Origin: Sphingomonas paeninsulae
GTDB taxonomy: Bacteria; Pseudomonadota; Alphaproteobacteria; Sphingomonadales; Sphingomonadaceae
NCBI RefSeq assembly: GCF_003660165.1
Contig: NZ_CP032829.1
Coordinates: 62,001-126,000 of the forward strand
DNA length: 64,000 nucleotides
Direction of reading: 5' to 3'
This document shows positions 3,803-64,000 of this stretch, one piece after another. The notes beneath the pieces are model-generated. The model saw nothing but the letters and a program-made list of their open reading frames with translations. It was not told the DNA's origin and searched no databases. How positions within the stretch are numbered: the first letter of the stretch is position 1; each line of letters begins with the position of its first letter. Made by a program: the position numbers and the translations under genes.

Positions 3803-4562
3803 ATGCTGACGCTGGCAGTCGCGTTTTTCGGAACCGCGCTGCTGTATGCGTCGGTAGGGTTTGCGGGCGGATCAACCTATAATGCGCTGCTGGTACTGGC
3901 GGGCGTCGATCACCGGATTTTCCCGGTTATCGCGCTGGTCTGCAATCTGATCGTCGCGACGGGGGCAGCATCCGCTTTGCACGGGCCGGACTGGTGCCGT
4001 GGCGGCGGTTGTGGCCGCTGCTGGCTGTCTCTGTCCCTGCGGCGTGGATCGGGGGCGCCTTGCCCGTTTCAAAGGCGCTGTTCGTACTGCTGCTGGGAGG
4101 GTCGCTGTTCGTGGCAGGCATTGTACTGCTGATCCAGCGACCGCCGCGTGAAGATGTCATAAGCGAAAACACTCGGTATCCGGTGATCGGGCCGCTGCTT
4201 GCTGCGCCGCTGGGCCTGTTATCGGGAATCGTCGGCATCGGTGGCGGAATATTCCTTGCTCCGGTGTTACACCTGATTGGATGGGACAAGACCAAGCGCG
4301 TGGCAGCCAGTGCGTCGGTGTTTATCCTTGCCAATTCGATCGCAGGACTTGGCGGACAATTAAGCAAGATCGCACAGGGCGGAATGACGGTTTTGCAGCC
4401 AGTGGTCGCGTACTGGCCGCTGGCGATTGCGGTACTGATCGGGGACAGATCGGAAGCCGGGCCGGCGTTCAGATATTGCCGCCGGTATGGCTCCGCAGAC
4501 TAACCGCCGCGCTGATCCTTTACGTATCCATACGGTTGCTATGGCAGAGTTTCTCCGGTTGA
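3803..4562 (+). CDS. TauE/SafE-family permease, two frameshifts (probable sequence errors)
   Basis: A sulfite exporter TauE/SafE-type multi-span membrane protein of about 250 residues. The product begins MLTLAVAFFGTALLYASVGFAGGSTYNAL in the first frame, continues from about 3982 in a second frame (AGLVPWRRLWPLLAVSVP) and ends in a third frame from about 4442 (GSRAGVQILPPVWLRRLT to TGA at 4562). The family motif GLLSGIVGIGGGIFLAP is present near the centre. Each break is cured by one added base: near 3980-3982, and in the GGGG at 4441-4444. The ATG lies three bases after the secA stop, so translation may be coupled. The exported anion is unknown; the family handles sulfite, sulfoacetate and similar compounds. 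Confidence 0.82.
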
Positions 4563-4637
4563 CGTAAACGTCAATTCGTCGGCAGTCCAGAACGCGACTT
4601 AGCTTTAATGACTTTGGGTTGAGAGAGATCGGGACAC

Positions 4638-6101
4638 ATGGAACATCTGGACGTCCTGATCGTCGGCGCGGGCCTTTCGGGTATCGGTGCCGCCTGGCAT
4701 TTGCAGAAAAACTGTCCGGGCAAGCATTACGCCATCCTCGAAGCGCGCGCGACGAGTGGCGGCACATGGGACTTGTTCCGATACCCCGGCGTCAGGTCGG
4801 ATTCGGATATGCATACACTGGGATATCGGTTCAAACCGTGGGTGGACGACAAGTCGATCGCCGATGGTCCCACGATCCTGAGCTATGTTCGGGAGACGGC
4901 GCAAGAGAACGGGATCGAACAGCACATCCGCTATGGATGCCGGGTGTTGCGGGCCGAATGGTCTTCGTCTGATGCGTTATGGACCGTGCGGGTAGAGCAG
5001 GGTGGCAAGGCGGCAACGCTGACCGCGGCGTTCGTGATAATGTGCAGCGGCTATTACAGCTATGCGGAGGGGCATAACCCCGACTTTCCGGGTGCGGCGG
5101 ACTTTGCGGGGCGTATCGTCCATCCTCAGTTCTGGCCCGACGATCTGCACTATGACGGCATGAATATCACCGTCATCGGCAGCGGGGCGACGGCAGTGAC
5201 GCTGGTCCCAGCGCTTGCCGATCTGGGTGCTCATGTCACGATGTTGCAGCGATCACCGTCCTATGTTGCATCACGTCCGGAGAAAGACGTGACGGCGATA
5301 CGGCTGCGGAGGTTTTTGCCCGAGCAGATCGCTTACGGTCTGACACGCTGGAAAAATGTCCTGTTGGGATCGTTCTTTTTTAGGCTCGCGCGGAAAAAGC
5401 CGGTGGCATTCAAACAGCGGTTGATCGGGATGGTCCGCGATCAGCTGGGGCCGGATTACGACGTGGATACGCATTTCACGCCCAGGTATAATCCCTGGGA
5501 TCAACGGCTATGTGCCGTGCCTGACGGCGATCTGTTCAGGGCAATTCGAGCGGGGAAGGCGGAGGTCGTCACGGATACGATCGACACTTTTACGCCAGAT
5601 GGGATCAGGCTGGCGTCGGGCCGGGAATTGACCGCCGACGTCATTGTGACAGCCACGGGACTAAAGATGAACACGCTTGGTGACGTCGTGCTGACAGTCG
5701 ATGGCGTCGCGGTCGATGTGAGCAAGACGATGGCCTATAAGGGCATGATGTTCAGCAACGTGCCGAACATCGCTTACGTATTTGGTTATACCAACGCGTC
5801 CTGGACTCTGAAGGCGGACCTGACCGCCGATTACGTATGTCGCGTGCTGAATTATATGGACCGACGGGGTGTTACGGTTGCGACGCCACGACGCAATGAC
5901 CCGAATATAACAGAGGAGCCATTCCTCGATTTCTCAAGCGGATATGTCACTCGTGCTGCCGATATATTGCCCAAGCAGGGGTCCAAAAAGCCGTGGAAGT
6001 TGCACCAGAATTACTTTCGTGACCTGATGGCCCTGAAGTTTGGCAAGATCGATGATGGTACGCTGAAGTTTTCAAATCCCGCGCGTGCAAAGGCTGCTTG
6101 A
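4638..6101 (+). CDS. Flavin-containing / Baeyer-Villiger-type monooxygenase
   Basis: A 487-residue FAD- and NADPH-dependent monooxygenase. The N-terminal FAD-binding fold has GAGLSG at residues 10-15 and the downstream GGTWDLFRYPGVRSD signature of the family. The class fingerprint FxGxxxHxxxW is met exactly by FAGRIVHPQFW at about residues 156-166, followed by the NADPH-binding GSGATA at 181-186. This combination matches type I Baeyer-Villiger monooxygenases and the related EthA-like group, which insert oxygen into ketones or oxidise sulfur and nitrogen atoms. The substrate cannot be read from sequence. It stands alone, with 75 bases separating it from the permease upstream. Confidence 0.85.
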   Translation: MEHLDVLIVGAGLSGIGAAWHLQKNCPGKHYAILEARATSGGTWDLFRYPGVRSDSDMHTLGYRFKPWVDDKSIADGPTILSYVRETAQENGIEQHIRYGCRVLRAEWSSSDALWTVRVEQGGKAATLTAAFVIMCSGYYSYAEGHNPDFPGAADFAGRIVHPQFWPDDLHYDGMNITVIGSGATAVTLVPALADLGAHVTMLQRSPSYVASRPEKDVTAIRLRRFLPEQIAYGLTRWKNVLLGSFFFRLARKKPVAFKQRLIGMVRDQLGPDYDVDTHFTPRYNPWDQRLCAVPDGDLFRAIRAGKAEVVTDTIDTFTPDGIRLASGRELTADVIVTATGLKMNTLGDVVLTVDGVAVDVSKTMAYKGMMFSNVPNIAYVFGYTNASWTLKADLTADYVCRVLNYMDRRGVTVATPRRNDPNITEEPFLDFSSGYVTRAADILPKQGSKKPWKLHQNYFRDLMALKFGKIDDGTLKFSNPARAKAA

Positions 6102-6153
6102 CAGGGTGTATTAGTGGATTAGCACACAGGGCATATCCATTGGGAGAGTCCTC

Positions 6154-7968
6154 ATGCGCCTGCGTATTTTGATCCTATCGACCGTTTCCGCCGCCCTGCT
6201 CACGCCCGTTATTGCATCGGCCCAGACCGCTGCTTCGACAGCTTCTGTATCCGCCGAAAGTGCAAAGCTGCGCAAGATATTCGCGGACAGTGATGAAGCG
6301 CAATTGAAGCGGAACCCCTTGTTCGCGCTGTACCGTGGGGACACGCGTTTCGGGGGCCAGTTCGGCGATTTCATCACCGATCAATATTATTCGCGCGAAA
6401 AAGCCGCGAGTGAAGCCGACCTTGCAGCGTTGAAGTCTATCGATCGGTCAAAGCTGAATGCCGACGATCTGATTTCATATGACGTCTTCAAATATCAGAC
6501 CGAGATGGCGTTGCGCGGGTTCGATCCGGCACTGCTGCGCACTGCGACGGATCGACCGGTCGATCATTTTTCCGGGTTCCAGACATTCATGCCCGATTTG
6601 TCGTCGGGTGAAGGGGCAGCTCCGTTCAAGACAGTCGCCGATTATGACAATAACCTCGTCCGACTGGCAGGATATGTCACCTATCTCGACCGCACGATTG
6701 AGAGGATGCGCGAGGGGCTGGCCGATGGCGTTACCAATCCGAAACTGGTCATGCAAAATGTCGTCGATCAGCTTGACGCCCTGATTGCCCAGGGGGTTGA
6801 GGGATCGACATTTTACAAGCCTGTTACCAAATTTCCCGCAGATGTTTCATCTGGTGATCAGGCGAGGCTGAAAACTGCTTATGCAAAGTTCATTCGCGAT
6901 CAGTTGATCCCCGCTCATGCCCGGCTGAGGGACTTTATCAAGACCGACTATCTGCCAAAGGCGCGTGAGACCGTAGGGCTGGGCCAGATGCCGGGTGGTC
7001 CGGCTTATTATCGCTATCTCGTGGCGCAGACGACGACGACGGACATGACTCCCGAGGCGATCCATGCGCTGGGCGTGTCCGAAGTTAATCGTATCCATGC
7101 CGAAATGGAAAAGGTGAAAGCGCAGGTCGGCTTCAAGGGGACGCTGGCCCAGTTCTTCGAATATATGCGGACCGATCCGAAATTCGCGCCCAAGTCGGCG
7201 GCGGCGATGCGCGACGAGTTCTTCGCGATCGACAAACGCCTGTCTGCGACGATCCCGCGCGATTTCGACACCATACCGAAGTCGCCGCTCGAGATTCGGC
7301 CGGTCCCGGCTTACAAGGAAAAGACCGACGCTGGCGGATCATATGAGCAGGGCACGCCTGACGGTTCGCGACCGGGGGTATTCTTTTACAACAGCTATGA
7401 CCTGCCATCACGGTTCACCTGGGGCTATGAAACCCTGTTCCTGCATGAAGGACGTCCGGGGCATCATTTTCAGATCAGCCTTGCGCAAGAAAATACGAAC
7501 CTGCCTGCGTTCCAGCGGTTTGGGGGAAACACCGCCTATGTCGAGGGATGGGCGCTCTATGCCGAGAGCCTTGGCAAAGAACTTGGCCTCTTCACCGACC
7601 CCAATCAATATTACGGGCATTTGAACGACGAGATCCTGCGCGCGATGCGGCTGGTCGTGGACACCGGCATCCATGCGCAGGGCTGGGGACGCGACAAGGC
7701 GATTGCCTATATGCTCGACAATTCGGCGATGGGGAAAAGCGACGCCACCGCAGAGGTCGAGCGCTATATCGCGATCCCGAGCCAGGCACTGGCTTATAAA
7801 ATCGGCGCGCTGACGATCCAGCGGCTGCGGGCAAAGGCCGTTGCGGCGTTGGGGCCAAAGTTCGACGTGCGCGAATTCCATGCACAGGTGCTGATGTCGG
7901 GGGCGCTGCCGATGAACGTGCTGGAGGCAAAGATCGATCGGTGGATTGCCGCCACCAAGGCAAAATAG
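6154..7968 (+). CDS. DUF885-family exported metallopeptidase-like protein
   Basis: A 604-residue DUF885 protein with a signal peptide ending near residue 24 (VIASAQ). The family is predicted to be zinc peptidases; the key motif is LFLHEGRPGHHFQ at about residues 428-440, where histidines and the glutamate take the place of HExxH, and a second acidic element, YVEGWALYAE, follows about 30 residues later. Length is normal for the family. The start is well supported by GGGAGAG five bases upstream. Expected location is periplasmic. Substrates of the family are mostly unknown, so peptidase activity is an inference. Confidence 0.85.
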   Translation: MRLRILILSTVSAALLTPVIASAQTAASTASVSAESAKLRKIFADSDEAQLKRNPLFALYRGDTRFGGQFGDFITDQYYSREKAASEADLAALKSIDRSKLNADDLISYDVFKYQTEMALRGFDPALLRTATDRPVDHFSGFQTFMPDLSSGEGAAPFKTVADYDNNLVRLAGYVTYLDRTIERMREGLADGVTNPKLVMQNVVDQLDALIAQGVEGSTFYKPVTKFPADVSSGDQARLKTAYAKFIRDQLIPAHARLRDFIKTDYLPKARETVGLGQMPGGPAYYRYLVAQTTTTDMTPEAIHALGVSEVNRIHAEMEKVKAQVGFKGTLAQFFEYMRTDPKFAPKSAAAMRDEFFAIDKRLSATIPRDFDTIPKSPLEIRPVPAYKEKTDAGGSYEQGTPDGSRPGVFFYNSYDLPSRFTWGYETLFLHEGRPGHHFQISLAQENTNLPAFQRFGGNTAYVEGWALYAESLGKELGLFTDPNQYYGHLNDEILRAMRLVVDTGIHAQGWGRDKAIAYMLDNSAMGKSDATAEVERYIAIPSQALAYKIGALTIQRLRAKAVAALGPKFDVREFHAQVLMSGALPMNVLEAKIDRWIAATKAK

Positions 7969-8070
7969 CCCTTGGTGGCTCGAACGGTAGTCAAGCCAAT
8001 CTGAGAATCGATTGATTCGACGCATGATTTGCTCGATCACCGTCACAATTCGGTAACATACGGGCAAAAG

Positions 8071-8865
8071 ATGACGAAGCAGCAGATTGCGATACGGATT
8101 TCATGTGGATTTGCCATTTTGATGGCGGGCGCATCGGCAATCGCGCAAAAACCTTCGCCATATCCTCCCGGTTATTTTGCCCCGGATGCCGTCCCCGACA
8201 TGACGACCGTTATTGGTGGCCCCCCGCAAGCGGGTTCGCCGTCCGACGTCCGCGACCGTCAGGTCTATCGTGAGACGAGAGCATTGGCGGGCACCGAGCG
8301 TTTTGCTCTTGCCACCAGCGATGCCGTGATCGGCGCACAAGCCCTGATGGATGACTTTGCCTGTGCAATGGGAAAGCGGATCGACATTGCAAAGGCGCCC
8401 GCCGTTACCAAGCTGCTGTTTACGACAGCAAGCGAAGCTGGTCTTGCAACCAGCAAGCCGAAAATGCTTTTCAAACGGCAGCGCCCGTTCATTGGCACGA
8501 CCGATCCGATCTGCACGCCGGGCGATGCGAGGATCGAGGGGAGCTTTGGTTATCCGTCGGGTCACTCGGCTTTCGGTTGGGCGCAGGGTCTGGTGCTCTC
8601 TGAACTAATGCCCGATCGCGCCGTGGCGATCATGACGCGCGCACGCATTTATGGCGAAAGCCGGGTCGTATGCGGCGTTCACACGGTCAGCGATATCGAG
8701 GCGGGGCGCAATGTGGCCGGGACCATCGTAGCAGCGCTGCACAGCGTGCCCGCGTTTCAGAGCGACTTCACCGCCGCAGCCAGGGAATTGGCGACCGTGC
8801 AGGGCAGCAAGCCGTCGGAAGCTATCTGCAAGATGGAGGCGAACGCGGTTACGCGGCCGTGGTAG
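8071..8865 (+). CDS. Class A non-specific acid phosphatase (PAP2 superfamily)
   Basis: A 264-residue periplasmic phosphatase. The three-part PAP2 active site is complete: KMLFKRQRP, then YPSGHS, then SRVVCGVHTVSD (the S-R-x5-H-x3-D motif with the histidine that carries phosphate). The spacing matches class A bacterial acid phosphatases of the PhoN/PhoC type, which remove phosphate from many monoesters outside the inner membrane. A signal peptide (AILMAGASAIAQ) ends near residue 25. The ATG at 8071 is used; an open frame reaches back to 8029 but that would place extra polar residues before the signal peptide. Confidence 0.88.
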   Translation: MTKQQIAIRISCGFAILMAGASAIAQKPSPYPPGYFAPDAVPDMTTVIGGPPQAGSPSDVRDRQVYRETRALAGTERFALATSDAVIGAQALMDDFACAMGKRIDIAKAPAVTKLLFTTASEAGLATSKPKMLFKRQRPFIGTTDPICTPGDARIEGSFGYPSGHSAFGWAQGLVLSELMPDRAVAIMTRARIYGESRVVCGVHTVSDIEAGRNVAGTIVAALHSVPAFQSDFTAAARELATVQGSKPSEAICKMEANAVTRPW

Positions 8866-9018
8866 TTTTGCCGCTCGCCAAACCATCACCGGCGGACGTT
8901 CTCGATTATGGGTTCACGATCGCGGTGATCGCGCTACAATCAAGCGGGCCCGCAGTCCGTCTCGGCCGTTCGACTTAAGGCTGGGATTCCTCGTTTCTGA
9001 GCGAAAAGGAGAGAACCG

Positions 9019-9378
9019 ATGAAACATATTCTCGCTGTAACCACCGCGCTTGCCGTGATGTTGACTGGCCCAATGGCTTCAGCGCAGGACCGGCGCGATG
9101 ACGGCCGAAGCCAGCATCAGAGCCGCGACGGCCACGGCAACCGGGGCGGCTATAACGGTGGGCGAGGGGGTCATGATCGCGGCAACTACGGTCGCTATGC
9201 GCGCGGCCAACGCTATCGGGGCGATGGTGCCTATGTGAGTGATTATCGCCGCTATGGCTATCGCGCGCCGCCTCGTGGCTATCGCTACTACCGGTCCAAC
9301 AATGGCGATGTCGTTCTTGCGGCTATCGCGACCGGGATTATCGCTTCGGTGATCGCCAACAACAATCGCGGTTATTAA
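9019..9378 (+). CDS. RcnB-like exported protein
   Basis: A 119-residue protein with a signal peptide cleaved after ASAQ near residue 23, a Gly/Arg/Tyr-rich basic middle (GRGGHDRGNYGRYARGQRY), and a C-terminal block YRAPPRGYRYYRS...DVVLAAIATGIIASVI typical of RcnB-family periplasmic proteins. In enteric bacteria RcnB helps nickel and cobalt homeostasis; sphingomonads carry several paralogs whose roles are not established, so the metal function is only a family analogy. AGGAGAG lies seven bases before the ATG. A hairpin directly after the stop ends the transcript. Confidence 0.72.
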   Translation: MKHILAVTTALAVMLTGPMASAQDRRDDGRSQHQSRDGHGNRGGYNGGRGGHDRGNYGRYARGQRYRGDGAYVSDYRRYGYRAPPRGYRYYRSNNGDVVLAAIATGIIASVIANNNRGY

Positions 9379-9381
9379 GGT

Positions 9382-9405
9382 AAGGGCCGCCCTTGGGGCG
9401 GCCTT
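9382..9405 (+). terminator. Hairpin terminator after the RcnB-like gene
   Basis: GGCCGCCC at 9385-9392 pairs with GGGCGGCC at 9396-9403 across a three-base loop, four bases after the stop of the preceding gene. The following T-run is weak (TTGTCT), so termination is plausible rather than certain. Confidence 0.6.
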
Positions 9406-9477
9406 GTCTCAACACAGCATCGCCTGCCACACTGGTCCGACCGACTTCTTTCCCAAGGGCGAAGAGGGATGGATGCA

Positions 9478-9801
9478 TCAGACGGTACGTGGTCCCATGA
9501 GGATGATGCATGTACCGATAAGACAAAGACCGGCACCACCGATGTCCCAGCGGTCAGGACGAATACCTTCGATAGCCCACAGCCATGCCAGCGACGCGCA
9601 GATATAGACGCCCCCGTAAGCCGCATAGGCGCGACCGGCGGCTTCGCTGTCTACGCGCGTCAGCAGCCACGCAAACATCATCAGGGACACCACACCGGGC
9701 ATGATCCAGAGGGGTGATTTGGCGAGGCGCAACCACGCCCAGAAAGCAAAGCACCCACCGATTTCTGCGATCGCAGCCGCCAGATAGACAATTGGGGTCA
9801 T
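9478..9801 (-). CDS. YnfA/UPF0060-family small membrane protein
   Basis: A 107-residue protein with four membrane segments, matching the YnfA (UPF0060) family in length and in motifs: [18 protein letters not shown] near the N-terminus, [11 protein letters not shown] in the middle and a closing [23 protein letters not shown]. The family belongs to the small multidrug resistance fold, but a transport function is not established for most members. Its ATG overlaps the TGA of the arsB remnant upstream (ATGA), a layout of co-translated genes that suggests it once belonged to an arsenic or metal-resistance operon. Confidence 0.82.
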
Positions 9802-10110
9802 ATGATGTTGACCCTTATAGTCATTGCGGCAAGGATGATGAGCAGCACTGGAACCGTCAGTGGCACGCCCACCTTGAAATAATAGCCCCAGCCAATTTTG
9901 ATGCCCTTCTGTCCAAAGACATGCAGCCAGAGCAATGTTGCAAGCGATCCGATCGGGGTGATTTTAGGATCGAGGTCATGGCCGAGGACGTGGCGTAGGT
10001 CATGGTTTCCCTGATCGCCCCGGTCGCATGTGTTGCCTCGATCGACAGTGCGCCCACCGCCATGACAAACGCGAGCGTTGCCTTGTCGCGATATAGGACG
10101 CCAGCAGCAT
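9798..10110 (-). pseudogene. C-terminal remnant of an ArsB-type arsenite pump
   Basis: The minus strand encodes the last 100 or so residues of an ArsB-family membrane pump: [20 protein letters not shown] in one frame and then [23 protein letters not shown] in the next, ending with a hydrophobic segment and TGA. The frame change lies at about 9991 and is repaired by one extra A on the coding strand (giving TYANVLG). About three quarters of the gene is missing; no N-terminal ArsB sequence was found upstream before the TonB receptor. Even if the frameshift is a sequence error, the 5' truncation makes this a remnant. Confidence 0.7.
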
Positions 10111-10245
10111 AGCGGTGAGATCGCCGAGTCAGTTCTCTCCGGTCGCAAGTCTATTCAGTGAACGAGATACGCCGAGCATTACTGAGCGTGTGAGATGTAC
10201 GAGGTTCGGCTGGCAGCGTCCCCCGTCACACATCCTCGCTTGGTG

Positions 10246-12684
10246 TCATACACCGAAGTGGAAACGCAGGCGCATCCCGTACATGCGCGGTTCGCCATAC
10301 ATCGTTGCCCAAATCCCCAGCGACTGGTTTACGTCGGAGTTACTGATCCGATAGAGTTTGTCCGTCGCGTTGGTTACGAAGACACCGGCATCAATGCCTG
10401 TCCCGCTGATGTTCTTCCAGTCGAGAGAAGCATTGAGCAGACCATATCCGGCCAGGATCGAACCTGGCTGGAGAGCGGGAAGCACGACAGCTTCGGTATT
10501 CTGGGACGAGGTGTGCGCGTAGTTCACGAAGAACGACAGGGCACCCATCGTACCCGGCAACTCCTTGTTTACCGCCATGTGTACGCTGAAGATATAGGGC
10601 GCGACATACTGACCGGGCAGGCACTTTATGTTGGATAACGTGCCGGGTGCAGGAGTGGTGCCGGTGCAGTCCGGAAGCCCATTGGCAGGGACCAAATACT
10701 GGGTGTACTTAAAATTAGTGTAGCTGAAATTGCCGCCGATTTCCACTTGTGGGATCGGACGAATCGCCGCCTCCACTTCGATACCCTGAACATGAGCCTT
10801 AGCGGGATTGACAGCCGCGCCGCTGGCGTTGGTCAACGGATTATAGTCGCCCGTTGCCTTCTGGATGTTGGAATAGTTTAGGAAATAATAGTTTGCATTG
10901 AAGCGCGTCGGTATATTGCCCAAGTGGAAGTCGGATTTGATGCCGCCTTCATAGTCTGTGACATATTCGGGATTGAACGTCTCGGTTGTCGTGCGGACTG
11001 CATAGGAATTGAACCCGCCCGCCTTGTAACCGCGCGCCACCTTTGCGTAGAGCAAGACGTGCGGCACAAGTTTGTAATCGAGGCCGGCAGTCCAGGTTGG
11101 TGCCTTGCTGTGCAGTTTAGCGGAAAAAGTACAACCTGTCGCCGGATCGGTCAGGACAGTCGCGCCATTATACACGCAGGTAAATGCGCCGGGGACCGTC
11201 CTGGACACGTTATAGGAATAAGCGGTGCCGTTGATTGTATCCCAGGTATAACGATAGCCGGCGGTTAGCCGCAGCCCTTCGAGTGAAGGAGAAAGAGCGC
11301 CGAAATCGAGCGTGCCCTGCGCGTAGATCGCCTTCGATTTATTCGCTACCGCAACACTGGAGACGGTCTGAGGGCAAAAGCCCGTGTAGGCGGCTGGGCA
11401 AAAGACGATCGAGTTGACGCCCATTTCACCTGCGGGGCTCTGGTTATAATAGAAGCCGCCGACCGTAAACGTCAGGTGATTGTCGAGCATGGTGCCCTGC
11501 AACTGGAGTTCTTCGGTGAACTCCTTGAGGTCATCACGCGGCAGCGAGTTGCTCGGCAGCGACGAGTCATATTGTTGCACCGTGGTGCCGTCGCCGTCAT
11601 AATAATAGTTACTTTTGAATGCCTGATAGCTGATGATGTTGCGCACCAACAGTTCGTCGGTGAGATTTACCCGCGACGTGTTCACAACTCCCCAAGTACG
11701 GGTCGTCTGACCCTGGAGGACGCCGGGTGCTTCTGCACGTGGCCCCAGCGCGTTCGCCTGTGCGGTGAGGCCGCTATAATAGCTGCAGGGAACCTGCCCC
11801 GGAACGCCGCACAAACCGTAACTATTTAAAAGGGGAATGTTGAAGCCCTTATTGATCAGGGCTGTGCCGTTGTTATCCGAATAGGTGCCATAGGCCATCA
11901 GGTAGTTTTCGAAGTTCGAACTGGGCCGGAACGTGATACCGATGCGACCCGTGTACCAGTGCACGTTATCGAGATTCCGGTTGTACGTCACATCGCGCGT
12001 GTATCCATCGCGATCGTGATAGGCGCCGGAAACGCGAACCAGCAGCTTATCATCCACGACGGGCACGTTGAGCATGCCTTCGAATTCATTGTCGTTATAG
12101 TTGCCGTACTGCGCGGATACCGATCCGGACAGTTCGTTGGTTGGTTTGTGTGGCACGAGCAGAACTGCGCCACCGGTCGTGTTGCGCCCGAACAGCGTGC
12201 CTTGCGGCCCGGCGAGAATCTGTAGACTTTCGAGATCGACATAATTGCCCGGTCCGCCCTGCTGGCTGAGCGTGATCGGGGCGGGCAGCGGCACCTCGGC
12301 CATATACACGACGACGCCGGGCGACGCCTGGAAAGTAGCGCCTTGACCACGAAGAGTGAAGGTCTGCGTATCGCGGGACGCCTGGCCGTTGGCGCCCACC
12401 ACCAACGATGGCACGCTCGCCGCAAGATCCTGAGCTTTGGTGATGCCCTGCTGTTGAAGCCGTTCGCTGGAGAAGGCCGTGATCGAGATGGGCACGTCTT
12501 GCTGGTGTTCTTCACGGCGATTCGCGGTAACGATGATATCGCCAACGCCAACGGCCGAGCTCCTGCTGGCTGCGGCCTGCGTATCCGCGCTCTGGGATTG
12601 CACCACTTGTGCATGAGCCGCCTGGCCCGCGACCATCGCCGCAATGCCAACAGATCCGGCCAGAAACTTGTGAGAAGTCCCCAT
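10246..12684 (-). CDS. TonB-dependent outer-membrane receptor
   Basis: An 812-residue TonB-dependent receptor that would take up a ligand across the outer membrane using energy from TonB-ExbB-ExbD. The signal peptide ends at AAHAQ near residue 26. The plug starts around residue 48 with DIIVTANRREE, QDVPISITAFS and the LQILAGPQGTLFGRNTTGGAV signature. The rest is beta barrel ending in RFHFGV. The start at 12684 is preferred because GGAGG lies six bases upstream; an ATG six bases earlier would sit against that site. Sphingomonad receptors of this subclass import varied carbohydrates, aromatics or siderophores; the ligand cannot be told. A JmjC-like gene follows upstream on the same strand. Confidence 0.92.
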   Translation of the reverse strand: MGTSHKFLAGSVGIAAMVAGQAAHAQVVQSQSADTQAAASRSSAVGVGDIIVTANRREEHQQDVPISITAFSSERLQQQGITKAQDLAASVPSLVVGANGQASRDTQTFTLRGQGATFQASPGVVVYMAEVPLPAPITLSQQGGPGNYVDLESLQILAGPQGTLFGRNTTGGAVLLVPHKPTNELSGSVSAQYGNYNDNEFEGMLNVPVVDDKLLVRVSGAYHDRDGYTRDVTYNRNLDNVHWYTGRIGITFRPSSNFENYLMAYGTYSDNNGTALINKGFNIPLLNSYGLCGVPGQVPCSYYSGLTAQANALGPRAEAPGVLQGQTTRTWGVVNTSRVNLTDELLVRNIISYQAFKSNYYYDGDGTTVQQYDSSLPSNSLPRDDLKEFTEELQLQGTMLDNHLTFTVGGFYYNQSPAGEMGVNSIVFCPAAYTGFCPQTVSSVAVANKSKAIYAQGTLDFGALSPSLEGLRLTAGYRYTWDTINGTAYSYNVSRTVPGAFTCVYNGATVLTDPATGCTFSAKLHSKAPTWTAGLDYKLVPHVLLYAKVARGYKAGGFNSYAVRTTTETFNPEYVTDYEGGIKSDFHLGNIPTRFNANYYFLNYSNIQKATGDYNPLTNASGAAVNPAKAHVQGIEVEAAIRPIPQVEIGGNFSYTNFKYTQYLVPANGLPDCTGTTPAPGTLSNIKCLPGQYVAPYIFSVHMAVNKELPGTMGALSFFVNYAHTSSQNTEAVVLPALQPGSILAGYGLLNASLDWKNISGTGIDAGVFVTNATDKLYRISNSDVNQSLGIWATMYGEPRMYGMRLRFHFGV

Positions 12685-12695
12685 AACCATCCTCC

Positions 12696-13131
12696 ATTTT
12701 TCTTTTATGTATCCACCTCGACATATGGCGTTGTCAAAGAGAATCGGAGTCGAAGTCGGCTAAGCATTTTGGGCCGTTATCGATTTCGTGAACAGGTGAT
12801 CTGCTCCGGAGGCGTAAATGAGTGGGTGACTGGCGCGGTCAGGCAACTGCCAGGATGGCTTGGGGTCGTTTTCGACCCTGTTTACGCATCAGCATGGCTG
12901 CGCATCTTGATGCCGGGCGCGATATGGACGCCCCCGACAACCGTCAGCACGGCGCTGCATCTGATCGGGCATCGTCATGTCTCCCGATTTCGTACGCTAC
13001 CATAATGTCCCGAACCGTAGCCGATGCTGGCTGGTGCGCAGTTGAACTCTTCGTGTACCGTGCCGACATCAAGAACAGCAACGAGATCTTGGCTGAACTC
13101 CGGCGCGATCCTTTGGTGTTGAGTTGACGTT
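12696..13131. other. Gene-free interval upstream of the TonB receptor
   Basis: About 430 bases with no gene I can support. Open frames here either run into the neighbouring genes or lack ribosome binding sites and protein-like composition. The promoter and leader of the TonB receptor should lie at the left end. I looked for a cobalamin-type or other riboswitch leader and saw no recognisable element. Confidence 0.4.
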
Positions 13132-13980
13132 CTATAAGCGTACGCCAACCTTGCGCAGAGCCCGCCAGGCCGTAGATTTTGCCACATTGCGATGCGGCAG
13201 GGGACGGGGCGGCGCAGGATTAAGCCCGAAATTACGGAGTATCTTGTTGAATGCCCGCGTGTCCGCCTCAGCATAGCTCCAGCGCGAACGCCAGGTCACC
13301 GAGAGCGAGATGGATACCTCCGATCCATTCTTCACGTAATGCGGCCATTTGAGCGGTACATAGATTGCATCCCCGGCGCGGAGTGTCACCGATTTGCCCT
13401 TTGCCTCAAACTCATCCTTCCAAAGAACCGTTCGCGGACCGCCCGTGTGATAGATTTCGTGAAACTGAGCCGGGATGATCGATTCATCGGTTCCTGAGAA
13501 AAGGGTCATTGTCTTCTCGCCGCGGGTTTGCAGCAGAATATTGTATTCGGGATCGCTGTGGAACGGTGTGACCGAATTTGGCGACGAAATGAAGATGAAC
13601 CCGACGAGGTTCAGCATCGGGCCGGTGATAGCTTCAACGGCTGGGCGGATTTCGGAGAGAACATCGTGCAGGAGTGCCCTGTAGGTGGGGTCAAGCTCGA
13701 TATTTTTAAGAACCGCCCACGACGCGCTCTCTTCGATAGAGGCGATGGTTTCAAGAACCGAGAGGGAGTGTTTGGGAACCTCGTGCTGGCCAATACCGAT
13801 TGGAAGTGCACCAATATTGTGCTCGATGACCGAAGCGGGCAGCCTCTCGCTCAACGCGAGCAGTTCCGGAATTTCCATCAGCGGGTGATCTAAAAAATCA
13901 TGCTTAAGCTTTAAGATTGAATCGGGGTAGCATTGCTTAAAATCTTCAATGCTGGCCGTAGGGAATGCTTTATTGCGCAT
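13132..13980 (-). CDS. JmjC/cupin-like (cupin_8) dioxygenase-type protein
   Basis: A 282-residue protein of the cupin-like JmjC group. The metal-binding facial triad can be seen: HSD within TPFHSDPEYN at about residues 160-169, and a distal histidine in PLKWPHYVKNGSE near residue 232, with the typical RAGDAIYVP turn before it. Such proteins are Fe(II)/2-oxoglutarate oxygenases or their inactive relatives. AAGGA lies upstream of the ATG. In sphingomonads and xanthomonads similar genes often sit beside TonB receptors, as here, but the substrate is unknown. It is tandem with the receptor but 450 bases away, so not clearly one operon. Confidence 0.75.
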   Translation of the reverse strand: MRNKAFPTASIEDFKQCYPDSILKLKHDFLDHPLMEIPELLALSERLPASVIEHNIGALPIGIGQHEVPKHSLSVLETIASIEESASWAVLKNIELDPTYRALLHDVLSEIRPAVEAITGPMLNLVGFIFISSPNSVTPFHSDPEYNILLQTRGEKTMTLFSGTDESIIPAQFHEIYHTGGPRTVLWKDEFEAKGKSVTLRAGDAIYVPLKWPHYVKNGSEVSISLSVTWRSRWSYAEADTRAFNKILRNFGLNPAPPRPLPHRNVAKSTAWRALRKVGVRL

Positions 13981-14231
13981 CGGATTAATCCTTAACGTGC
14001 TAGTTACTCAATATTATTGATAAATTGCACTGCCGTTTATTATTGCGCGATACTCATATCTGGAAAGCGTTGACAAATTATAGGGTCCACGCGGATTGAG
14101 ACGATATGGCGGCTGCGGCCATCCCGAAAAGGATCTGGCCAATCTTCGGTCGCGATTGAGCTGATGAACGCCTATAACCGGTTGGGTATAGCCTTGCGTC
14201 CACCAGTCGCCGCTGCCGGAGTATAAGACCT

Positions 14232-14741
14232 ATGGATATCACCCAACTCATTCTTGACGACCATCATGAGCAGCGTCGGCTGTTCTCCATCCTCGAGCAG
14301 ATCGACAAAAGTGATACGGTAAGTCTCGCCGCCGTCTGGCGGCGCTTGTCGGCCTTTCTCGAGGTTCACGCCGAAACCGAGGAGCGCTTTTTTTATCCTG
14401 CGCTGATGCGCGTTGGCCGGAAGGCGAACCGGACCGAAGAAGTAGAAGACGAATCGCTCGACGCGATCAAGGATCACAATGAAATCCGGGATGCCGTGGC
14501 CGCGGTGGAAAGCGAAATCAACGGAACCGAAGCCTGGTTCAAAGCGGTCGCCGCCGCGAATAAGGCGAACGGTGACCATATGGCGGAAGAGGAGCGCGAG
14601 GGCCTCACTGAATTTCGCAGATTGGCGCCGCTGGCACTTCGCCATGATCTTGCCGTGTCATTCATCTCGTTCGAGACGACCAATGTCGATGGCGTCGTAC
14701 CCATCGACAAAGACCCGAAGAAATGGGTCGAGACTCACTGA
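14232..14741 (+). CDS. Hemerythrin HHE-domain protein
   Basis: A 169-residue protein with a four-helix HHE cation-binding domain. The di-iron ligands are visible in order: DDHHEQRRL near residue 10, EVHAETEERFFYP near residue 50, IKDHNEI near residue 85 and DHMAEEEREGL near residue 117. Bacterial members bind oxygen or nitric oxide or act in iron and redox stress. The C-terminal 45 residues extend beyond the domain and are not recognised. It has a GGAG site ten bases upstream and stands alone on its strand. Confidence 0.88.
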   Translation: MDITQLILDDHHEQRRLFSILEQIDKSDTVSLAAVWRRLSAFLEVHAETEERFFYPALMRVGRKANRTEEVEDESLDAIKDHNEIRDAVAAVESEINGTEAWFKAVAAANKANGDHMAEEEREGLTEFRRLAPLALRHDLAVSFISFETTNVDGVVPIDKDPKKWVETH

Positions 14742-14938
14742 GGTCTTCGCCCGTAAGCTTTGCCTGATCGAAGGTTAGACTTCCTCGCCGCGGCGAATAC
14801 CCCGGAATCGGTTGCCGGGTTCCCTTAAAAGCGCTTTCGGACTTTTACCGATGCGTCTGCCCCGTTGGCGGAGCATTTCGGCGACGCAGATTTTCCCATT
14901 TCGGAAAATCTTTTTATCGATGCCTTACAAGGCACCGC

Positions 14939-15013
14939 TGGCTCCCCGGGCCTGATTCGAACAGGCGGCCATTCGATTAACAGTCGAATGCTCTACCGCT
15001 GAGCTACCGGGGA
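14939..15013 (-). tRNA. tRNA-Asn (GTT)
   Basis: The minus strand folds as a tRNA: acceptor TCCCCGG pairs with CCGGGGA, the D-arm is AGCTCAGCGGTAGAGC, the anticodon loop CTGTTAA gives GTT for asparagine, and the T-arm contains GTTCGAATC. The 3' CCA is encoded, the total is 75 bases. Confidence 0.95.
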
Positions 15014-15062: not shown

Positions 15063-15838
15063 TCAGACGATGAACTGCTCCATCGCGATGCGATCATCGA
15101 GCGCATGTTCCGGATCGAACAGCAATTTTAACGTCGATGGACGGTCAATCGACACCGTAATGGTCGAGACATCACGGACTTCGCGCTGGTCGGCTACGGC
15201 AGAAACCGGGCGTTTTACCGGATCGAGAACACGGAATTTTATAACTGCCGATTCGGGCAGAATCGCACCGCGCCAGCGACGGGGGCGGAATGGGCTGATC
15301 GGTGTCAGGGCCAGCAACGCCGAACCAAGCGGAAGAATCGGTCCATGCGCCGAAAGATTATAAGCGGTCGACCCGGCCGGTGTCGCGACCAGAACACCGT
15401 CGCAGACCAGTTCTGGCAGGACAACGCGCCCATTCACCTCAACCTCAAGCTTTGCCGTCTGGCGAGTCTCACGCAGGAGCGAGACTTCATTGATCGCGGG
15501 GAGCGAGATTCGCTGACCGTCGATCGTTTCCGCTTCCATTCGCAATGGCGTGACGTTGAACAGCTTGGCATTTTCGATTCGCTCGTCGAGGCGCTTTTCC
15601 CGCCACTCGTTCATCAGGAAACCGACAGTACCGAGATTCATGCCGAAGACTGGCAGGATACGGCGATCCTCAAGCATCGCGTGGAGCGTCTGAAGCAGAA
15701 AACCGTCGCCCCCAGTGCGACGATCATATCCGCTTCCTTCACGTCCACCCAGTCCCTGCGTGCGCGCAGGGACGCTGCGGCCTCCTCTGCAGCGTCGGTG
15801 GGGGAAACGAGCAGTGCGCGCTTTGGCTCGGCAATCAT
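15063..15838 (-). CDS. nadK: NAD kinase, one frameshift (probable sequence error)
   Basis: NAD kinase makes NADP from NAD and ATP. The N-terminal part (from ATG at 15838) runs to MIVALGA, then the frame breaks; the other frame resumes with HAMLEDRRILPVFGMNLGTVGFLM and reaches the stop at 15063. Adding one C to the CCCCC at 15709-15713 (a G on the coding strand) restores ALGGDGFLLQTLHAM, the conserved GGDG active-site motif. The substrate site PAGSTAYNLSAHGPI is intact, and the repaired protein is about 258 residues, normal for the family. Its ATG overlaps the moaA stop. nadK is essential in most bacteria, so an assembly error is much likelier than a broken gene. Confidence 0.9.
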
Positions 15839-22452: not shown

Positions 22453-24506
22453 ATGCGACCCGAACTCCTCAATCCGCTATTCGCCGAAGTCGAGGCGCTG
22501 AAGGGCGTTGGTGCCGGCATTGCCAAGCCTCTGGCGCGTCTAGGACTGGAGCGCGTGGTTGATGTCCTGTTCCATTTGCCAACCGGAACGGTAACCCGCG
22601 CGAAGGTCGATCGGCTGGACGATGCGGTGCCGGGCGAGAATATCGTCATCGTGGTGACACCAGTCGAATACAAGCAGAACGGATCGCGCGGGCCGTTGCG
22701 GATTCAAGCTGTCGATGGCGCGGGCGACTATCTGAGTCTAACGTATTTCGGCGCACATACGGGTTATGCACGCAAGCTGTTGCCGATCGGTGAGCCGAAG
22801 CTGATTTCCGGCAAGCTGGAGATATACGGGCAGGAGCGACAGATCGTTCACCCCGACCAAATCTTGGCACCGGATGATGCAATTGCCTTGAAGGAATCGG
22901 TGTATCCGCTGTCAGAAGGGCTGACAGCGCGGCGACTGGGGCAGCTGGCCGAACAGGCGATTTCGCGCGCGCCGGAACTACCCGAATGGATCGAGCCGGG
23001 GCTGCTTGCTTCGAAAGGCTGGCCGGCCTGGCGAGAGGGGGTTGCGACCGCGCACCATACCCCCGACGATGCGGCTGCGCGCGAGCGGATTGCCTATGAC
23101 GAGGTGTTTGCCAACCAGTTAGCCTTGATGCTGGTGCGCGCCTCCACACGAAAGCGCCGGGGAACGCCGCTGACGGGTGACGGTCGTCATCGCGATGCTT
23201 TGCGCCTGCCCTATGCGCCGACTGGCGCGCAGCGGCGGGTAATGGGTGAGATCGAGGGCGATATGGCGCAGGCCACGCCGATGGTGCGATTGCTTCAGGG
23301 CGATGTCGGGTCGGGTAAGACTTTGGTTGCGCTTGAAGCGATGCTGATTGCAGTCGAGGCGGGGGCGCAGGCGGCTTTGCTAGCTCCGACCGAGATTTTG
23401 GCTCGGCAGCATTTTGCCAACCTACAGACAATGATGTCCGGTCTGCCCGTGCGGATCGCGATACTGACCGGGCGCGACAAGGGGCGGGTGCGTGAGGCGA
23501 CGTTGATGGGGTTGGCCGACGGGTCGATCGACATCCTTATCGGAACGCATGCTATATTTCAGGAGGCCGTCGCCTATAAACGGCTCGGGCTGGCCGTGGT
23601 GGACGAGCAGCACCGATTCGGCGTTGCGCAGCGCATGTTGTTAACCGCGAAGGCCGAGCGCCCGCCGCATCTGCTGGTGATGACCGCAACGCCGATCCCG
23701 CGCACGCTGACCCTGACGAATTATGGCGAGATGGATGTCAGCCGGATCGACGAAATGCCGCCGGGGCGAACGCCGGTCGAGACGCGGGTGATTGCCGGGG
23801 ATCGTCTTGACGAGGTGGTCGAAGGGCTGGGTCGGCATATCGAAGCTGGCGGACAGGCGTTCTGGGTGTGCCCATTGGTCGAAGAAACCGAAATGGCCGA
23901 TCGGGGGCAGCAGAGGCGCGGGCTGCGTCATTAAAGCTACGGTTCGGAGAACGGATCGGACTGGTTCACGGCCGAATGAAGGGACCGGAAAAGGATGCCG
24001 TGATGGCAGCGTTTCAGCGGGCCGAACTTTGCGTTTTGGTAGCGACGACCGTGATCGAGGTTGGCGTGGATGTACCGAACGCATCGCTTATCGTCGTGGA
24101 GGATGCGGAACGGTTCGGGCTGGCGCAATTGCACCAGTTGCGCGGGCGCGTTGGGCGCGGGGCGGAACGATCGGTGTGTCTGCTGCTCAGGGGCAATTCG
24201 CTGAGCGAAACCGCACGAGCGCGGCTGGCCACCATGAAGAATTCGAACGACGGATTCTTTATTGCCGAGGAAGATTTGCGGCTTCGGGGTGCTGGCGAAC
24301 TTCTCGGCACCAAACAGTCGGGCGAAGCACGATTCCGATTGGCGACGGCGGAGCAAATTGTGGCGCTGACACCAACGGCACATGACGATGCCCGATTGTT
24401 GGTCGACCGCGACGGCGGGCTGGATGGCGAACGAGGACAGGCCGCTCGGATGGCACTCTATCTTTTCGAACGCGATGCTGGGGTAGTGCTGCTACGATCG
24501 GGGTGA
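22453..24506 (+). CDS. recG: ATP-dependent DNA helicase RecG, one frameshift (probable sequence error)
   Basis: RecG reverses stalled replication forks and processes branched DNA. The first frame holds the wedge domain and the helicase core: GDVGSGKTLVAL (Walker A), DEQHRFGV (Walker B), TATPIPRTL. It breaks after EETEMADRG and the second frame continues AAEARAASLKLRFGERIGLVHGRM, VATTVIEVGVDVPNA and QLRGRVGRG to the stop at 24506. One extra G in the GGGGG at 23903-23907 joins them into a protein of about 684 residues, the normal RecG size. All motifs on both sides are intact, which argues for a sequence error. Confidence 0.92.
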
Positions 24507-34056: not shown

Positions 34057-35906
34057 CTAATCGTCATCATATCCCATAAGGGACATCAAGGTTTCTTTTG
34101 CCTCGCTGAATGCGCGGTTCAATCGCGCTTGTTCCGCAAAGCTTTCTTCATCGCCACCCGCCGCAACCCGGGCAGTCGCTGCTGCCAGCGCTTCTGCCAG
34201 TTCGGGACGAGCCGTCGCCGCCTCAATCAACATTGCCAGATCGCGACGCGCACGTTCCGGTTCGGCATTGCTTCGCAAAAACGAAAAGGCAAGGCGATTG
34301 TGACTATTCGATGAGCGCAACTCCTCCAACACACCGGAAAGCCCCGCAGATTGGCATATGGTGTCGACGCGACCGATTTCAACGAGATCGCCTTCATATG
34401 CCGCTTCAAGCAGCACATTTCTCAAAAGATCGAGTGTCATGTCGCTCATCACGATCGATGACAGCGTCTCACCACAGGTCAGTACGATCGACGGATGGAG
34501 CACCAGACCCGCCATGATCGGCCGCTCGTACATCGGGTCGATTCCGCGACTCTGCATGGCTTTCACACTGTCCAGCGGGGGCACTTGTCGCTCGCGCGGT
34601 TTGACTCCCTTCTGATACGGCTTGCCCTTTACGAACGGCCTGCGCTCACGTTCGGCAAAAAATGCGGCGTCGAATCGTTCGCGCATTTCGCGGGCGTAGT
34701 GGCGGCGGACGTCATCATCGGCGATCGTCGCGACATGGGCGTCTATGCGTTGTTTTAGCCCCGCTTTGGCCTCTGGAGTACGCAAGGGAGCAGCATCATA
34801 CTCAGTCTGCCATATATGTTCGACCAGCGGCCGCGCGGCCTCGAACACGCCCTCCACTGCCTTCCGTCCACCGCTGCGGACAAGATCGTCGGGGTCTTGC
34901 CCCTTGGGTAACAGGACAAAACCCAGCGATTTGCCGGGGGCAAGCATCGGCAAGGCACGCACGGCGGCACGCATTGCCGCCTTCTGTCCCGCACTGTCTC
35001 CATCAAAGCAAAGCAGAGGGACATCGACCAGTCGCCAAAGCCGCTCGAGCTGAAATTCGGTGAGCGCTGTGCCGAGAGGGGCAACGACCTCCTCGACGTC
35101 CGCCTGAGCAAGCGCGATGGCGTCCATATAGCCTTCGACGACGATCAGACGATCTGCCTTACGCGCGGGGCCGCCAGCGCGGTCGAGGTTGTAGAGTGTG
35201 CGGCCTTTGTCAAAGAGCGGCGTGTCGGGGGAGTTTAGATATTTCGGCTCGCCCGGCCCAAGAATGCGCCCGCCAAACGCGATAACACGACCCCGCGGGT
35301 CGCGAATCGGAATCATCAGGCGGCCGCGGAACCGATCGTAAGGGTCTTTTTCCTCAACAGAGATCAACAGGCCCGATTCGATGAGCTTTTCATTACCAAA
35401 AGAGGCGAGGGCGGTTTTCAGCTTGCCGCGACTGTCGGGGCAAAGCCGATGCCGAACGCAGTCGCTGTTGCGGTGTCGATGCCACGTTGGCCCAGATAGG
35501 TGCGGGCATCCGCCCCGGATATCCCGGCAAGTTGCTCGACAAACCACGCCTGTGCGACGGTCATGACATCGTAAAGCGAGTTCGCAACCTCGGCACGTTC
35601 GGCACTGCGCGGATCGGGCGCGGGGACGTCCATTCCGGCTGCTGCGGCAAGTTCCTTGACCGCGTCCATAAAGGGCAAGCCCTTTGCCTCGGTCAGCCAG
35701 CGTATGGCGTCGCCGTGCGCCGAGCAGCCGAAGCAATGGTAAAAGCCCTTATCATCGTTGACGTAAAAGCTGGGGGACTTTTCGTTATGAAAAGGACAGC
35801 AGGCTTTGAACTCGCGCCCCGCACGCTGAAGCTTCAGCGTGCGACCAACGAGCGCCGACAACATTGTCCGAGTGCGGAGTTCGTCGAGGAATTGGGGGGA
35901 GATCAT
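34057..35906 (-). CDS. dnaG: DNA primase DnaG, one frameshift (probable sequence error)
   Basis: DnaG makes RNA primers at the replication fork. The first frame (from ATG at 35906) contains the CHC2 zinc finger CCPFHNEKSPSFYV...YHCFGCSAHGDAI and ends after FGIGFAP; the second continues with DSRGKLKTALASFGNEKLIESGLL, the TOPRIM domain (VVEGYMDAIALAQ, DGDSAGQKAA) and the C-terminal helicase-binding part. One extra G in the GGGG at 35437-35440 rejoins the frames, giving about 616 residues, normal for the family. Because DnaG is essential and every catalytic motif is intact, this is almost certainly an assembly error. Confidence 0.94.
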
Positions 35907-55912: not shown

Positions 55913-57153
55913 ATGAAGCTGGTATCGACTTTTGCGCTGAGTATGGCGCTGACGATGGGAAGCGTTGGCTTCAGCGCGGCCGTTGCCAAGGAAAAGCCGG
56001 CGGCAAATGCGACTGTTCAACTGAGCAAGGAATATCGTACTGCGGCCGCTCCGGTTCAGGAAGCTATCAAGGTGGGCAACCTGCCTGACGCACTCACCAA
56101 GCTGGCGGCAGCCGATGCCGCAGCAAAATCCCCTGACGAACTCTTCATCTCAGCACAATTCCGCTATCAGATTGCAACTGCTCAAAAAGACACCGCTGCT
56201 CAGGGCAAAGCTATCGACGCGATGCTGGCAAGCGGGGCGCCCCTGCTTCAATGGCACCCCAGCTCGCACTTGCATCCGGGCAAGCCGCCTATCAGGCAGG
56301 TAATTATCAGCGGGCAAGTCAGATGCTGACTGAAGCGCAGCGTTTGGGCAACAAGACACCGGACATCTACCTCTTGCTGGCCGAGACTGATTTCAAGCTC
56401 AATCAGATTCCGGCGGGGCTTGCTGCTGTCCAACAGGCAATCACAGCGCAGGAAGCAACGGGCCAGAAAGCTCCGAAGGAATGGTACGCTCGTGCCGCTT
56501 CGGTCGCTTACAAAGCCAAGCTAACCGGCGAAACCGCAAAATGGACGCGGGCTCAATTGAAAGCTTATCCGAATACCGAGAATTGGCGTAGCGCCCTGGT
56601 CATCTATCGCGACAGTGCCACCCGCGATGGGTCGATTAATCTCGACATCTTCCGCCTGATGCGCGCCACCAAGAGCCTGGCGGGCGAACGAGATTATTAT
56701 GAATATGCTGCATTGGCGACCGAACGAGGCCTTCCTGGCGAAGCAAAGTCGGTAGCCGACGAGGGTTTTGCTACCAGCGCCGTCCCTGCTGGTAGCAAGG
56801 CCGTCAGCGAAATCAGGTCGATGGCAAATGCGAAAACGGCGGGCGATCGTGCCAGCCTTGCTGCGTCCGAGCGTACTGCGGGTTCGGCTGCAACCGGCAA
56901 GATCGCTCTCGGAACCGCCGATGCGTATCTGGGTTATGGCGACAATGAAAAAGCGATCGCGCTTTACAAGATCGCCTTGACCAAGGGTGGCATCGATGCC
57001 GATGCAGCCAACACGCACCTTGGTGTCGCGCTTTTCCGGGCGGGACAGAAAGATGCTGCCAAGGCTGCATTTACGGCGGTTAATGCCAATGGCACGCGCG
57101 GCGAAATTGCGGCGTTCTGGTTGCTGTATCTCGACCAGCCAGCGACTGCATGA
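55913..57153 (+). CDS. Exported TPR-type protein, one frameshift (probable sequence error)
   Basis: An exported protein of about 413 residues. The first frame begins with a signal peptide (MKLVSTFALSMALTMG, cleavage near SFSAAVAKE) and helical repeats; it breaks near ASGAP, and the second frame continues MAPQLALASGQAAYQAGNYQRASQMLTEAQRLG to the stop. One extra base in the CCCC at 56240-56243 (or the GGGG at 56234-56237) joins them. The product is a string of tetratricopeptide-like hairpins, usually protein-binding scaffolds. The ribosome site AGGAGGAAAG is excellent. It ends in a strong hairpin. Confidence 0.78.
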
Positions 57154-59668: not shown

Positions 59669-59748
<80 letters not shown>

Positions 59749-59873: not shown

Positions 59874-60685
59874 TCAGAGCATTTGCCAGATCGGATTCGC
59901 AGGGTCGGCTAACAGTTTGATCGTCAGCACAGCCGACATGATGACAAGAAGCGGGCGCACGCCACGCCCGCCAAACCGTAATGCCAGTCTCGCTCCGACC
60001 TGATTGCCCGCGACATTGGCTACGGCCATTCCTAGGCCCAGTATCCACAACATCTTACCGCCCGCGATCATTGCAATAAGACCGGCAAGATTCGTCGCGA
60101 GATTGAGGAATTTTGTAGTGGCAATTGCCCGGACAAGACCAAGGCCACCAAGCGCCACCAGCGCCGTGGTCATAAATGACCCGGTTCCAGGGCCGAAAAA
60201 GCCATCATAGAAACCGATGATCGTCAAAATCGCAGTCATGCCAATACGGCCAAGGCGGGGGTGTCGATCAAGCTCACTCATCGGCGGCGCGAACAGGAAG
60301 TAGAATCCCATCAAGATCACCAGCACTGGCACGAAAGCGGCAAGGAAAGCCGGATTGACGTGCTGGACCGCCGTTGCGCCGAGCGCTGACCCTATAAAGG
60401 CACCTATGGCGGGGGAATGAAGCGGCGAAGATCGACATGGCCGGCCCGCCAGAAGGTGAAGAACGCCGAAGCGGTACCGATCGTGCTTTGAAGCTTGTTG
60501 GTTGCCAGAGCGGCAACGGGCGGGATCCCACATGCCATCAACGCCGGGATGGTCAATAATCCTCCACCACCAGCCAACGCGTCAATTGCGCCAGCGATGA
60601 ACGCCACCCAAACGAGGATCAGGAAATATCGCCGGTTAAATGCACGACTCTCGCTTAGAGAATTCTCATCTGATCGCCAGTGCAT
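59874..60685 (-). CDS. Second TauE/SafE-family permease, one frameshift (probable sequence error)
   Basis: A sulfite exporter TauE/SafE-type permease of about 270 residues. From ATG at 60685 the first frame has FIAGAIDALAGGGGLLTIPALMACGIPPVAALATNKLQST, the standard family start, and ends after DLRRFIPP; the second frame continues AIGAFIGSALGATAVQHVNPAFL and IIGFYDGFFGPGTGSFMT, the central family motif, to the stop. One extra G in the GGGGG at 60411-60415 rejoins them. All predicted membrane segments are intact across the break. It is a paralog of the permease after secA but of a different subgroup. Confidence 0.85.
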
Positions 60686-62609: not shown

Positions 62610-62710
62610 GGACAAAGGGCTATCGGGTTCCCATTTGTTTGCCAATATCGCTGTCACCGTCTAACGGCGGCACGAAATTCATATCCTCCAAACGCAGAGA
62701 ACCGACCCCG

Positions 62711-64000
62711 ATGGCCGTGCAATATTCCTATGTCATGAAGGGTCTGACCAAGACCTTTCCCGGTGCCGCCAAGCCGATCCTGAACAATGTGAACCTGCAA
62801 TTCCTGCCGGGAACAAAGATTGCGATCATCGGTGTCAACGGCGCGGGTAAGTCCACGCTGATGAAGATCATCGCGGGCTATGACACTGAATTCAACGGTG
62901 AAGCCTGGGCAGGTGAGGGTATTCGTGTCGGTTATCTGGAGCAGGAACCGCGCCTGAACCCAAAGAAGAACGTCCGCGAAAACGTAATGGATGGCGTCCG
63001 CGACGTCGCCGACATGATGGACCGCTTCAACGAAATCTCTAATTTGATGGGCGATCCGCCCGAAGATGCGGATTTCGATGCTCTGTTGGCCGAAATGGGT
63101 GAGCTTCAGGAAAAAATCGACGTGGTCGATGGCTGGACGCTCGATAACCAGCTTGAAATCGCGATGGAGGCACTGCGGTGCCCACCAGGTGACGCGCTAG
63201 TCGACAATCTGTCGGGTGGTGAGCGTCGCCGTGTCGCGCTGTGCCGGTTGCTGCTTGAGAAGCCCGAAATTCTGCTGCTCGATGAGCCTACCAACCATCT
63301 CGATGCCGAAAGCGTCCAGTGGCTTGAAAAGCATCTGATCGATTATGCGGGTAACGTGATTCTCGTCACCACGATCGCTATTTCCTCGATAACGTCGTCG
63401 GCTGGGTGCTCGAAATTGATCGCGGCAAGGGCTTGCCGTTCGAAGGCAATTATTCCGCGTGGCTCGAATCCAAGGCCAAGCGGATGGAGCAGGAAGACCG
63501 CGAGGATGAGGGTCGTCAAAAGGCGATCAAGGAAGAACTTCAATGGATTCGCCAGTCACCGAAGGCGCGGCAGACCAAGTCAAAGGCGCGTATCCGTGCA
63601 TTCGACGAACTGGTCGAAAAGCAGGCGGATCGTCGTCCGGGTGGCGCGCAGATCCTGATCCAGATTCCTGAGCGGCTGGGTGGTAATGTCATCGACGCCG
63701 AGGGTTTGTCGAAATCCTATGGCGATAAATTGCTGTTCGAGGGGCTGAATTTCACTTTGCCGCCGGGCGGTATCGTGGGTGTGATCGGGCCGAACGGTGC
63801 GGGTAAATCGACGCTGTTCAAGCTGATTACGGGACAGGAAAAGCCCGACGCGGGGACGATCAAAATTGGGTCCACAGTGAAGCTCGGCTTTGTCGATCAG
63901 AGCCGCGACGATCTGGACCCCAAGTATACGGTTTGGCAGGAAGTTTCGGGCGGCAACGACCGGTTCTATTTCGGTAAACATGAAGTGAACACGCGGGCCT
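62711..64000 (+). CDS. ettA: Energy-dependent translational throttle protein EttA, one frameshift, cut by window edge
   Basis: EttA is a duplicated ABC-F ATPase that binds the ribosomal E site and controls the first steps of elongation according to energy. The start MAVQYSYVMKGLTKTFPGA, first Walker A GVNGAGKST, signature LSGGERRRVALCRLLL and Walker B LLLLDEPTNHLD are present. The frame breaks after VILVT; the other frame resumes HDRYFLDNVVGWVLEIDRGKGLPFEGNYS and includes a second GPNGAGKST. One extra C in the CC at 63369-63370 restores VTHDRYFLDN, an invariant motif. The gene runs past the window edge (typical length about 560 residues, some 430 seen). Confidence 0.9.

Follow-up and report, generated by a model that had tools for sequence, protein, structure and literature searches.

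Are seven genes in this stretch of DNA really broken by one-base deletions, or does the assembled sequence misreport genes that are intact in the living cell? The window, by which we mean the whole 64,000-nt stretch that was analysed, is C3:62001-126000 of a genome of 3.99 Mb in three contigs (hereafter the study genome). It is listed as 100% complete with 0.41% contamination, figures that do not reveal the losses described below. Related records carry the titles Sphingomonas, Sphingobium and other Sphingomonadales, and we take the family of the study genome to be Sphingomonadaceae. Two same-genus genomes, G001 and G003, share ~77-87% nucleotide identity with much of the window. Because lists of nucleotide gaps alone are too noisy at 77-85% identity, we added frameshift-aware protein-to-DNA alignment and placed the window sites with both.

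Eight one-base losses interrupt seven window genes

The first-pass annotation had listed eight frameshifts in seven genes, and each was borne out: compared with intact relatives, the window is one base short at every one of these sites, and all eight changes have the same sign. Aligning the proteins to relatives, one of the checks that had been proposed, gave single-frame homologues spanning the sites at nearly all loci tested (counts given here are of loci with a match, and one genome may supply several).

Two of the losses, at 3959-3966 and 4441-4443, fall in a TauE/SafE-like gene on the plus strand (TauE-like 1, 3803-4562); the first had been placed at 3982, and while the frameshift itself is present, that position was about 20 bases off. 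One piece of this gene matches the Pfam TauE family, and the G001 counterpart is a single 253-aa open reading frame (ORF), to which the arms on either side of the sites are 85% (52 aa) and 84% (200 aa), and 84% (213 aa) and 85% (39 aa), identical. A single-frame homologue crosses the site at the one locus with a match (1/1), which may not be an orthologue. The NAD kinase gene nadK (15066-15838, minus strand) has lost one base at 15711-15715; its longer piece scores above the cut-off of the NCBIfam NAD kinase model, G001 holds a 258-aa ORF with arms of 41 aa (90%) and 216 aa (97%), and all 51 matching loci read through the site in one frame. The two pieces of the helicase gene recG (22453-24506, plus strand; loss at 23905-23907) cover adjoining ranges, 3-503 and 506-704, of one RecG model, with arms of 484 aa (92%) and 199 aa (91%) against G001 and a single frame across the site at 80/80 loci. 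In the primase gene dnaG (34057-35906, minus strand; loss at 35436-35441), the window has two overlapping ORFs, both matching TIGR01391, where one frame runs through in each of G001 (625 aa) and G003 (621 aa); the arms are 155 aa (92%) and 460 aa (95%) against G001, and 23/23 loci are in one frame across the site.

A TPR-repeat protein (55913-57153, plus strand; loss at 56234) matches TPR families on its longer piece and corresponds to a 413-aa ORF in G001 (arms 107 aa, 74%, and 305 aa, 84%), with a single frame at 9/9 loci. For a second TauE/SafE-like gene (TauE-like 2, 59874-60680, the upper end being approximate; minus strand), one piece matches Pfam TauE and the G001 match is distant (24% identity); here four of four same-family homologues place one loss at 60412-60430, with arms of 57-71 aa at 55-73% and 167-180 aa at 43-59% identity. 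Finally, the gene for the ABC-F translational throttle EttA (62639-64000, plus strand, extending past the window end; loss at 63368) matches EttA models with its first piece and corresponds to a 596-aa ORF in G001 (arms 256 aa, 94%, and 339 aa, 98%); nine of ten loci span the site in a single frame, the tenth having been left unclassified by the script. As a separate observation, a dnaG match in a family member assembled as a single contig (G013:C1:2341762-2342838) contains two TGA codons and ends at query residue 358, and that assembly may have similar errors.

The losses had been described as lying in homopolymers, and this description holds for seven of the eight sites, each lying no more than ~9 nt from a G/C run whose printed length is 4 or 5; it fails for ettA, where the longest nearby run is 2. 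G runs are slippery in principle, and the same direction of shift would be needed at every confirmed site, as might be expected if ribosome or polymerase slipped on G/C runs in a programmed or tolerated manner and so restored the frame. However, no relative split at the same site was found in the six genes tested (with the one ettA locus unclassified), the affected genes are unrelated, and untranslated 23S and 5S rRNA copies differ in the same way (see below), so that we regard such frameshifting as extremely unlikely.

A ninth site had been claimed near 9991, in arsB. The frame change is present (near 9992), but the feature (9798-10148, minus strand) is a remnant of the C-terminal part only, recognised over ArsB profile positions 363-421 of 423, or roughly the last 60 of some 425 residues. 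Because the fragment is truncated, its frame change carries no weight as evidence, and we do not count it among the confirmed sites. The remnant lies within a stretch, 7961-14939, for which blastn aligned nothing from the G001 contig and which ends at a tRNA-Asn gene; it holds genes for PAP2, RcnB-like, YnfA-family, TonB-dependent receptor and Cupin_8 proteins besides the arsB remnant, and looks lineage-specific or inserted.

Losses of the same kind recur along the contig

We sampled 646 kb of the study genome and 391 kb of G001, yielding a comparison set of 211 genes (74,732 codons). The starting set was 368 G001 ORFs from five contigs, each 80 aa or longer; the remainder had no match at 60% identity or were less than 60% aligned. 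An event was called strict when both arms were at least 30 aa long and 60% identical and both 20-aa flanks reached at least 60%. Before this filter the study genome showed 42 losses and 19 gains relative to G001; after it, 21 losses in 19 genes stood against 3 gains. Within the window, 19 events were seen against G001, of which ten were strict and nine failed the filter.

The three strict gains are doubtful: two (28714 and 28803) lie in one G001 ORF but upstream of the window's own ORF, which starts at 28835, and the third is found close to where its own ORF begins. A position upstream of genes is also possible for at least two of the 21 losses, one of which has an N-terminal arm of only 34 aa. 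The other, at 36389, is a further strict loss in the window, where one base is missing relative to G001 and also to G003, between two divergent ORFs; it is probably not a coding position, and could reflect the same error or real variation.

All 21 losses were on contig C3 (C1 and C2 supplied nothing for comparison) and were distributed as 14, 5 and 2 over three of its sampled parts, with one gain and no loss in the fourth. In the reverse comparison, of study-genome proteins with G001 DNA, G001 showed 2 strict losses and 7 strict gains, five of these gains lying opposite a loss in the study genome (two of those losses strict). Similarly, 28 of 218 G001 proteins were split over frames on study-genome DNA and 18 of 229 study-genome proteins on G001 DNA, part of the latter list being study-genome ORFs that, once a base has been lost, read on out of frame. 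Smaller sets gave 2/13 forward and 1/13 in reverse for G003, and 1/5 and 3/8 for G004.

Outside the window, genes broken in the study genome with an intact G001 copy above the model cut-off were addA, the dTMP kinase gene, an IS256-family transposase gene, hmgA and the D-Ala-D-Ala ligase gene; below the cut-off were genes for a PPK2-like kinase and a CckA-like histidine kinase, the latter a weaker case with its loss near the N-terminus. DnaG, NadK, dTMP kinase and D-Ala-D-Ala ligase are normally essential. The signature that had been proposed from the window, of one sign and one size, mostly at G/C runs and reaching normally essential genes, thus recurs elsewhere on the same contig.

Loss frequency depends on G/C run length

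The strict losses were strongly associated with G/C runs: a run of at least 4 lay within 9 nt of 11/21 losses compared with 7.1% of random ORF positions (P = 4 × 10−8), and a run of at least 5 within 9 nt of 7/21 compared with 1.1%. No enrichment of A/T runs was found at the losses, with runs of at least 4 near 2/21 versus a background of 7.3%. Four of the 21, including ettA, had no G/C run of even 3 within 9 nt. The implied loss rate climbs from ~0.7% at a run length of 4 to ~2% at 5 and ~24% at 6; no loss was found adjoining a run printed as 6, and the aligned DNA would be expected to hold ~22 of these.

The run-length spectrum of the genome points the same way. The ratio of G/C runs of 7 to runs of 6 was 0.078 in the study genome versus 0.187 in G001, and that of runs of 6 to runs of 5 was 0.136 versus 0.160; the corresponding A/T ratios were 0.199 versus 0.224 and 0.221 versus 0.197. 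Relative to G001, the study genome thus has a deficit of G/C runs at lengths 6 and 7 and no clear deficit of A/T runs, a comparison that is supportive only, since the G+C content of G001 is higher (61.9% versus 58.5%). The 8/7 ratio for G/C runs points in the opposite direction, but the numbers behind it are very small (5 and 13 runs).

Strictly broken genes show no relaxed selection

Genuine gene decay, of the kind seen in a recently host-restricted lineage, could also split many genes, and the 28 divided G001 proteins, the arsB fragment and 31 apparent in-frame stops (past residue 40), confined to 17 comparisons among the 192 other genes, are in keeping with it. However, the 19 strictly broken genes themselves gave no sign of relaxed selection: their ratio of non-synonymous to synonymous codon differences was 0.345 versus 0.369 in the 192 other genes, their mean amino-acid identity was 0.868 versus 0.846, and none contained an extra in-frame stop past residue 40. 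Given moreover that nearly all lesions are of one type, that housekeeping genes are affected and that rRNA carries the same lesion, we give gene decay almost no credence.

Near-identical repeat and rRNA copies differ only in G/C run length

Near-identical repeats within the study genome serve as an internal control. Four repeat pairs (2,498, 2,716, 556 and 2,823 aligned positions; 8,593 in all) contained no mismatch and four one-base gaps, every one in a G or C run and together found on two contigs. Evolutionary divergence between copies should have left substitutions as well; run-length errors would look just like the gaps observed. Enlarging the sample to 1.446 Mb yielded no more pairs at 98% identity or above, and seven other pairs at 91-96%.

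The 2,716-position pair comes from two rRNA operon copies with three gaps, one in 5S and the others in 23S. At two of these gaps an outgroup, G008, agrees with the copy that has the longer run; at the third, where the stretch has diverged, G008 has five C, as the shorter copy does. The shorter 5S copy scores 78.3 bits against the 5S model compared with 86.9 for the other. We also observed a 2.5-kb repeated element, which presumably resembles an IS66-type transposase gene, in four sampled copies (G000:C1:178960-181457, C2:201944-204441, C3:2126605-2129106 and C3:2882889-2885386, G000 being the study genome) with 92-100% identity and a longest ORF of 521 aa. One copy, 94-96% like two of the others, is one base short beside a C run relative to the three other copies.

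Mismatch repair genes and the possibility of a mutator

In mismatch-repair mutator strains, indels accumulate in runs and rise with run length, and a true loss of mutL would make a mutator. In the study genome, mutL (G000:C3:2891975-2893466) matches its profile in two frames, over positions 1-331 and 410-554, with the change in a C-rich linker and a net shift equivalent to two losses or one gain. Together with the increase of losses with run length, this would be in accord with a lineage that has lost mismatch repair and accumulates real one-base deletions in G/C runs. The split in mutL is the chief observation speaking against an artefact. On the other hand, mutS reads as one uninterrupted frame of 871 aa, and the mutL change sits among C runs, where an artefact would strike too; it is probably the same artefact.

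Mutator strains also show gains as well as losses, keep their essential genes intact and have raised substitutions. The study genome resembles them in having losses in runs at a rate that rises with length, and differs from them in its few gains (those that passed the strict filter lying in or near N-terminal extensions), its broken essential genes and its repeats without substitutions. Loss of dnaG, which has one match in the genome, would hardly be survivable, and nor would that of nadK, tmk and ddl if each of these is likewise present once. A true mutator is therefore very improbable, if marginally less so than the frameshifting and gene-decay explanations above.

Discussion

Within the genes compared on one contig, coding losses are of one sign and depend on run length, and the same lesion is present in rRNA and repeats on two contigs. 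We conclude, with a probability of about 96%, that the broken genes are an assembly artefact in which the consensus under-counts short G/C runs by one base. Two comparisons argue for this consensus error: near-identical repeats and rRNA copies differ by single bases in G/C runs only, without substitutions, and the loss rate climbs steeply with run length with no enrichment of A/T runs. Together with the recurrence along the contig, they uphold the first-pass annotation in its reading of the window frameshifts as sequencing or assembly error.

Where genes are affected, the under-counted runs would look like frameshifts, and all seven window genes are most likely intact in the living cell. The cause would be a long-read assembly (PacBio or nanopore), polished little or not at all, in which homopolymers were under-called. 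That the 3.99 Mb fall into only three contigs fits long reads, but this is no more than suggestive, the platform being our inference.

Comparable errors have been described: in work on Kastor, deletions in long-read assemblies were tied to homopolymers of 2-8, most of them of 4-5, and made intact genes look like pseudogenes, with some in conserved regulatory RNA (PMC12007338). The losses reported here are alike in being deletions tied to homopolymers that give intact genes the appearance of pseudogenes. They differ from that case in that those sampled favour G/C runs with no A/T enrichment.

Extrapolation gives ~370 losses when based on coding sequence (21 in 224,196 nt) and ~930 when based on the repeats (4 gaps in two copies, each of 8,593 nt). 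Were these losses true, the organism would be extraordinary: it would have to tolerate hundreds of real losses in G/C runs through slippage of its ribosome or RNA polymerase, which would supply DnaG, NadK and the rest. We hold the chance of this to be minimal, real losses being very unlikely because of the rRNA and repeat comparison. The consensus-error reading implies instead that the feature is most likely not real biology, with no sign of new biology. For this organism, the result calls for caution over data quality: wherever a gene holds a G/C run, gene calls drawn from the assembly are doubtful, as are lists of pseudogenes and claims of gene absence, and genes that look broken should not be called dead.
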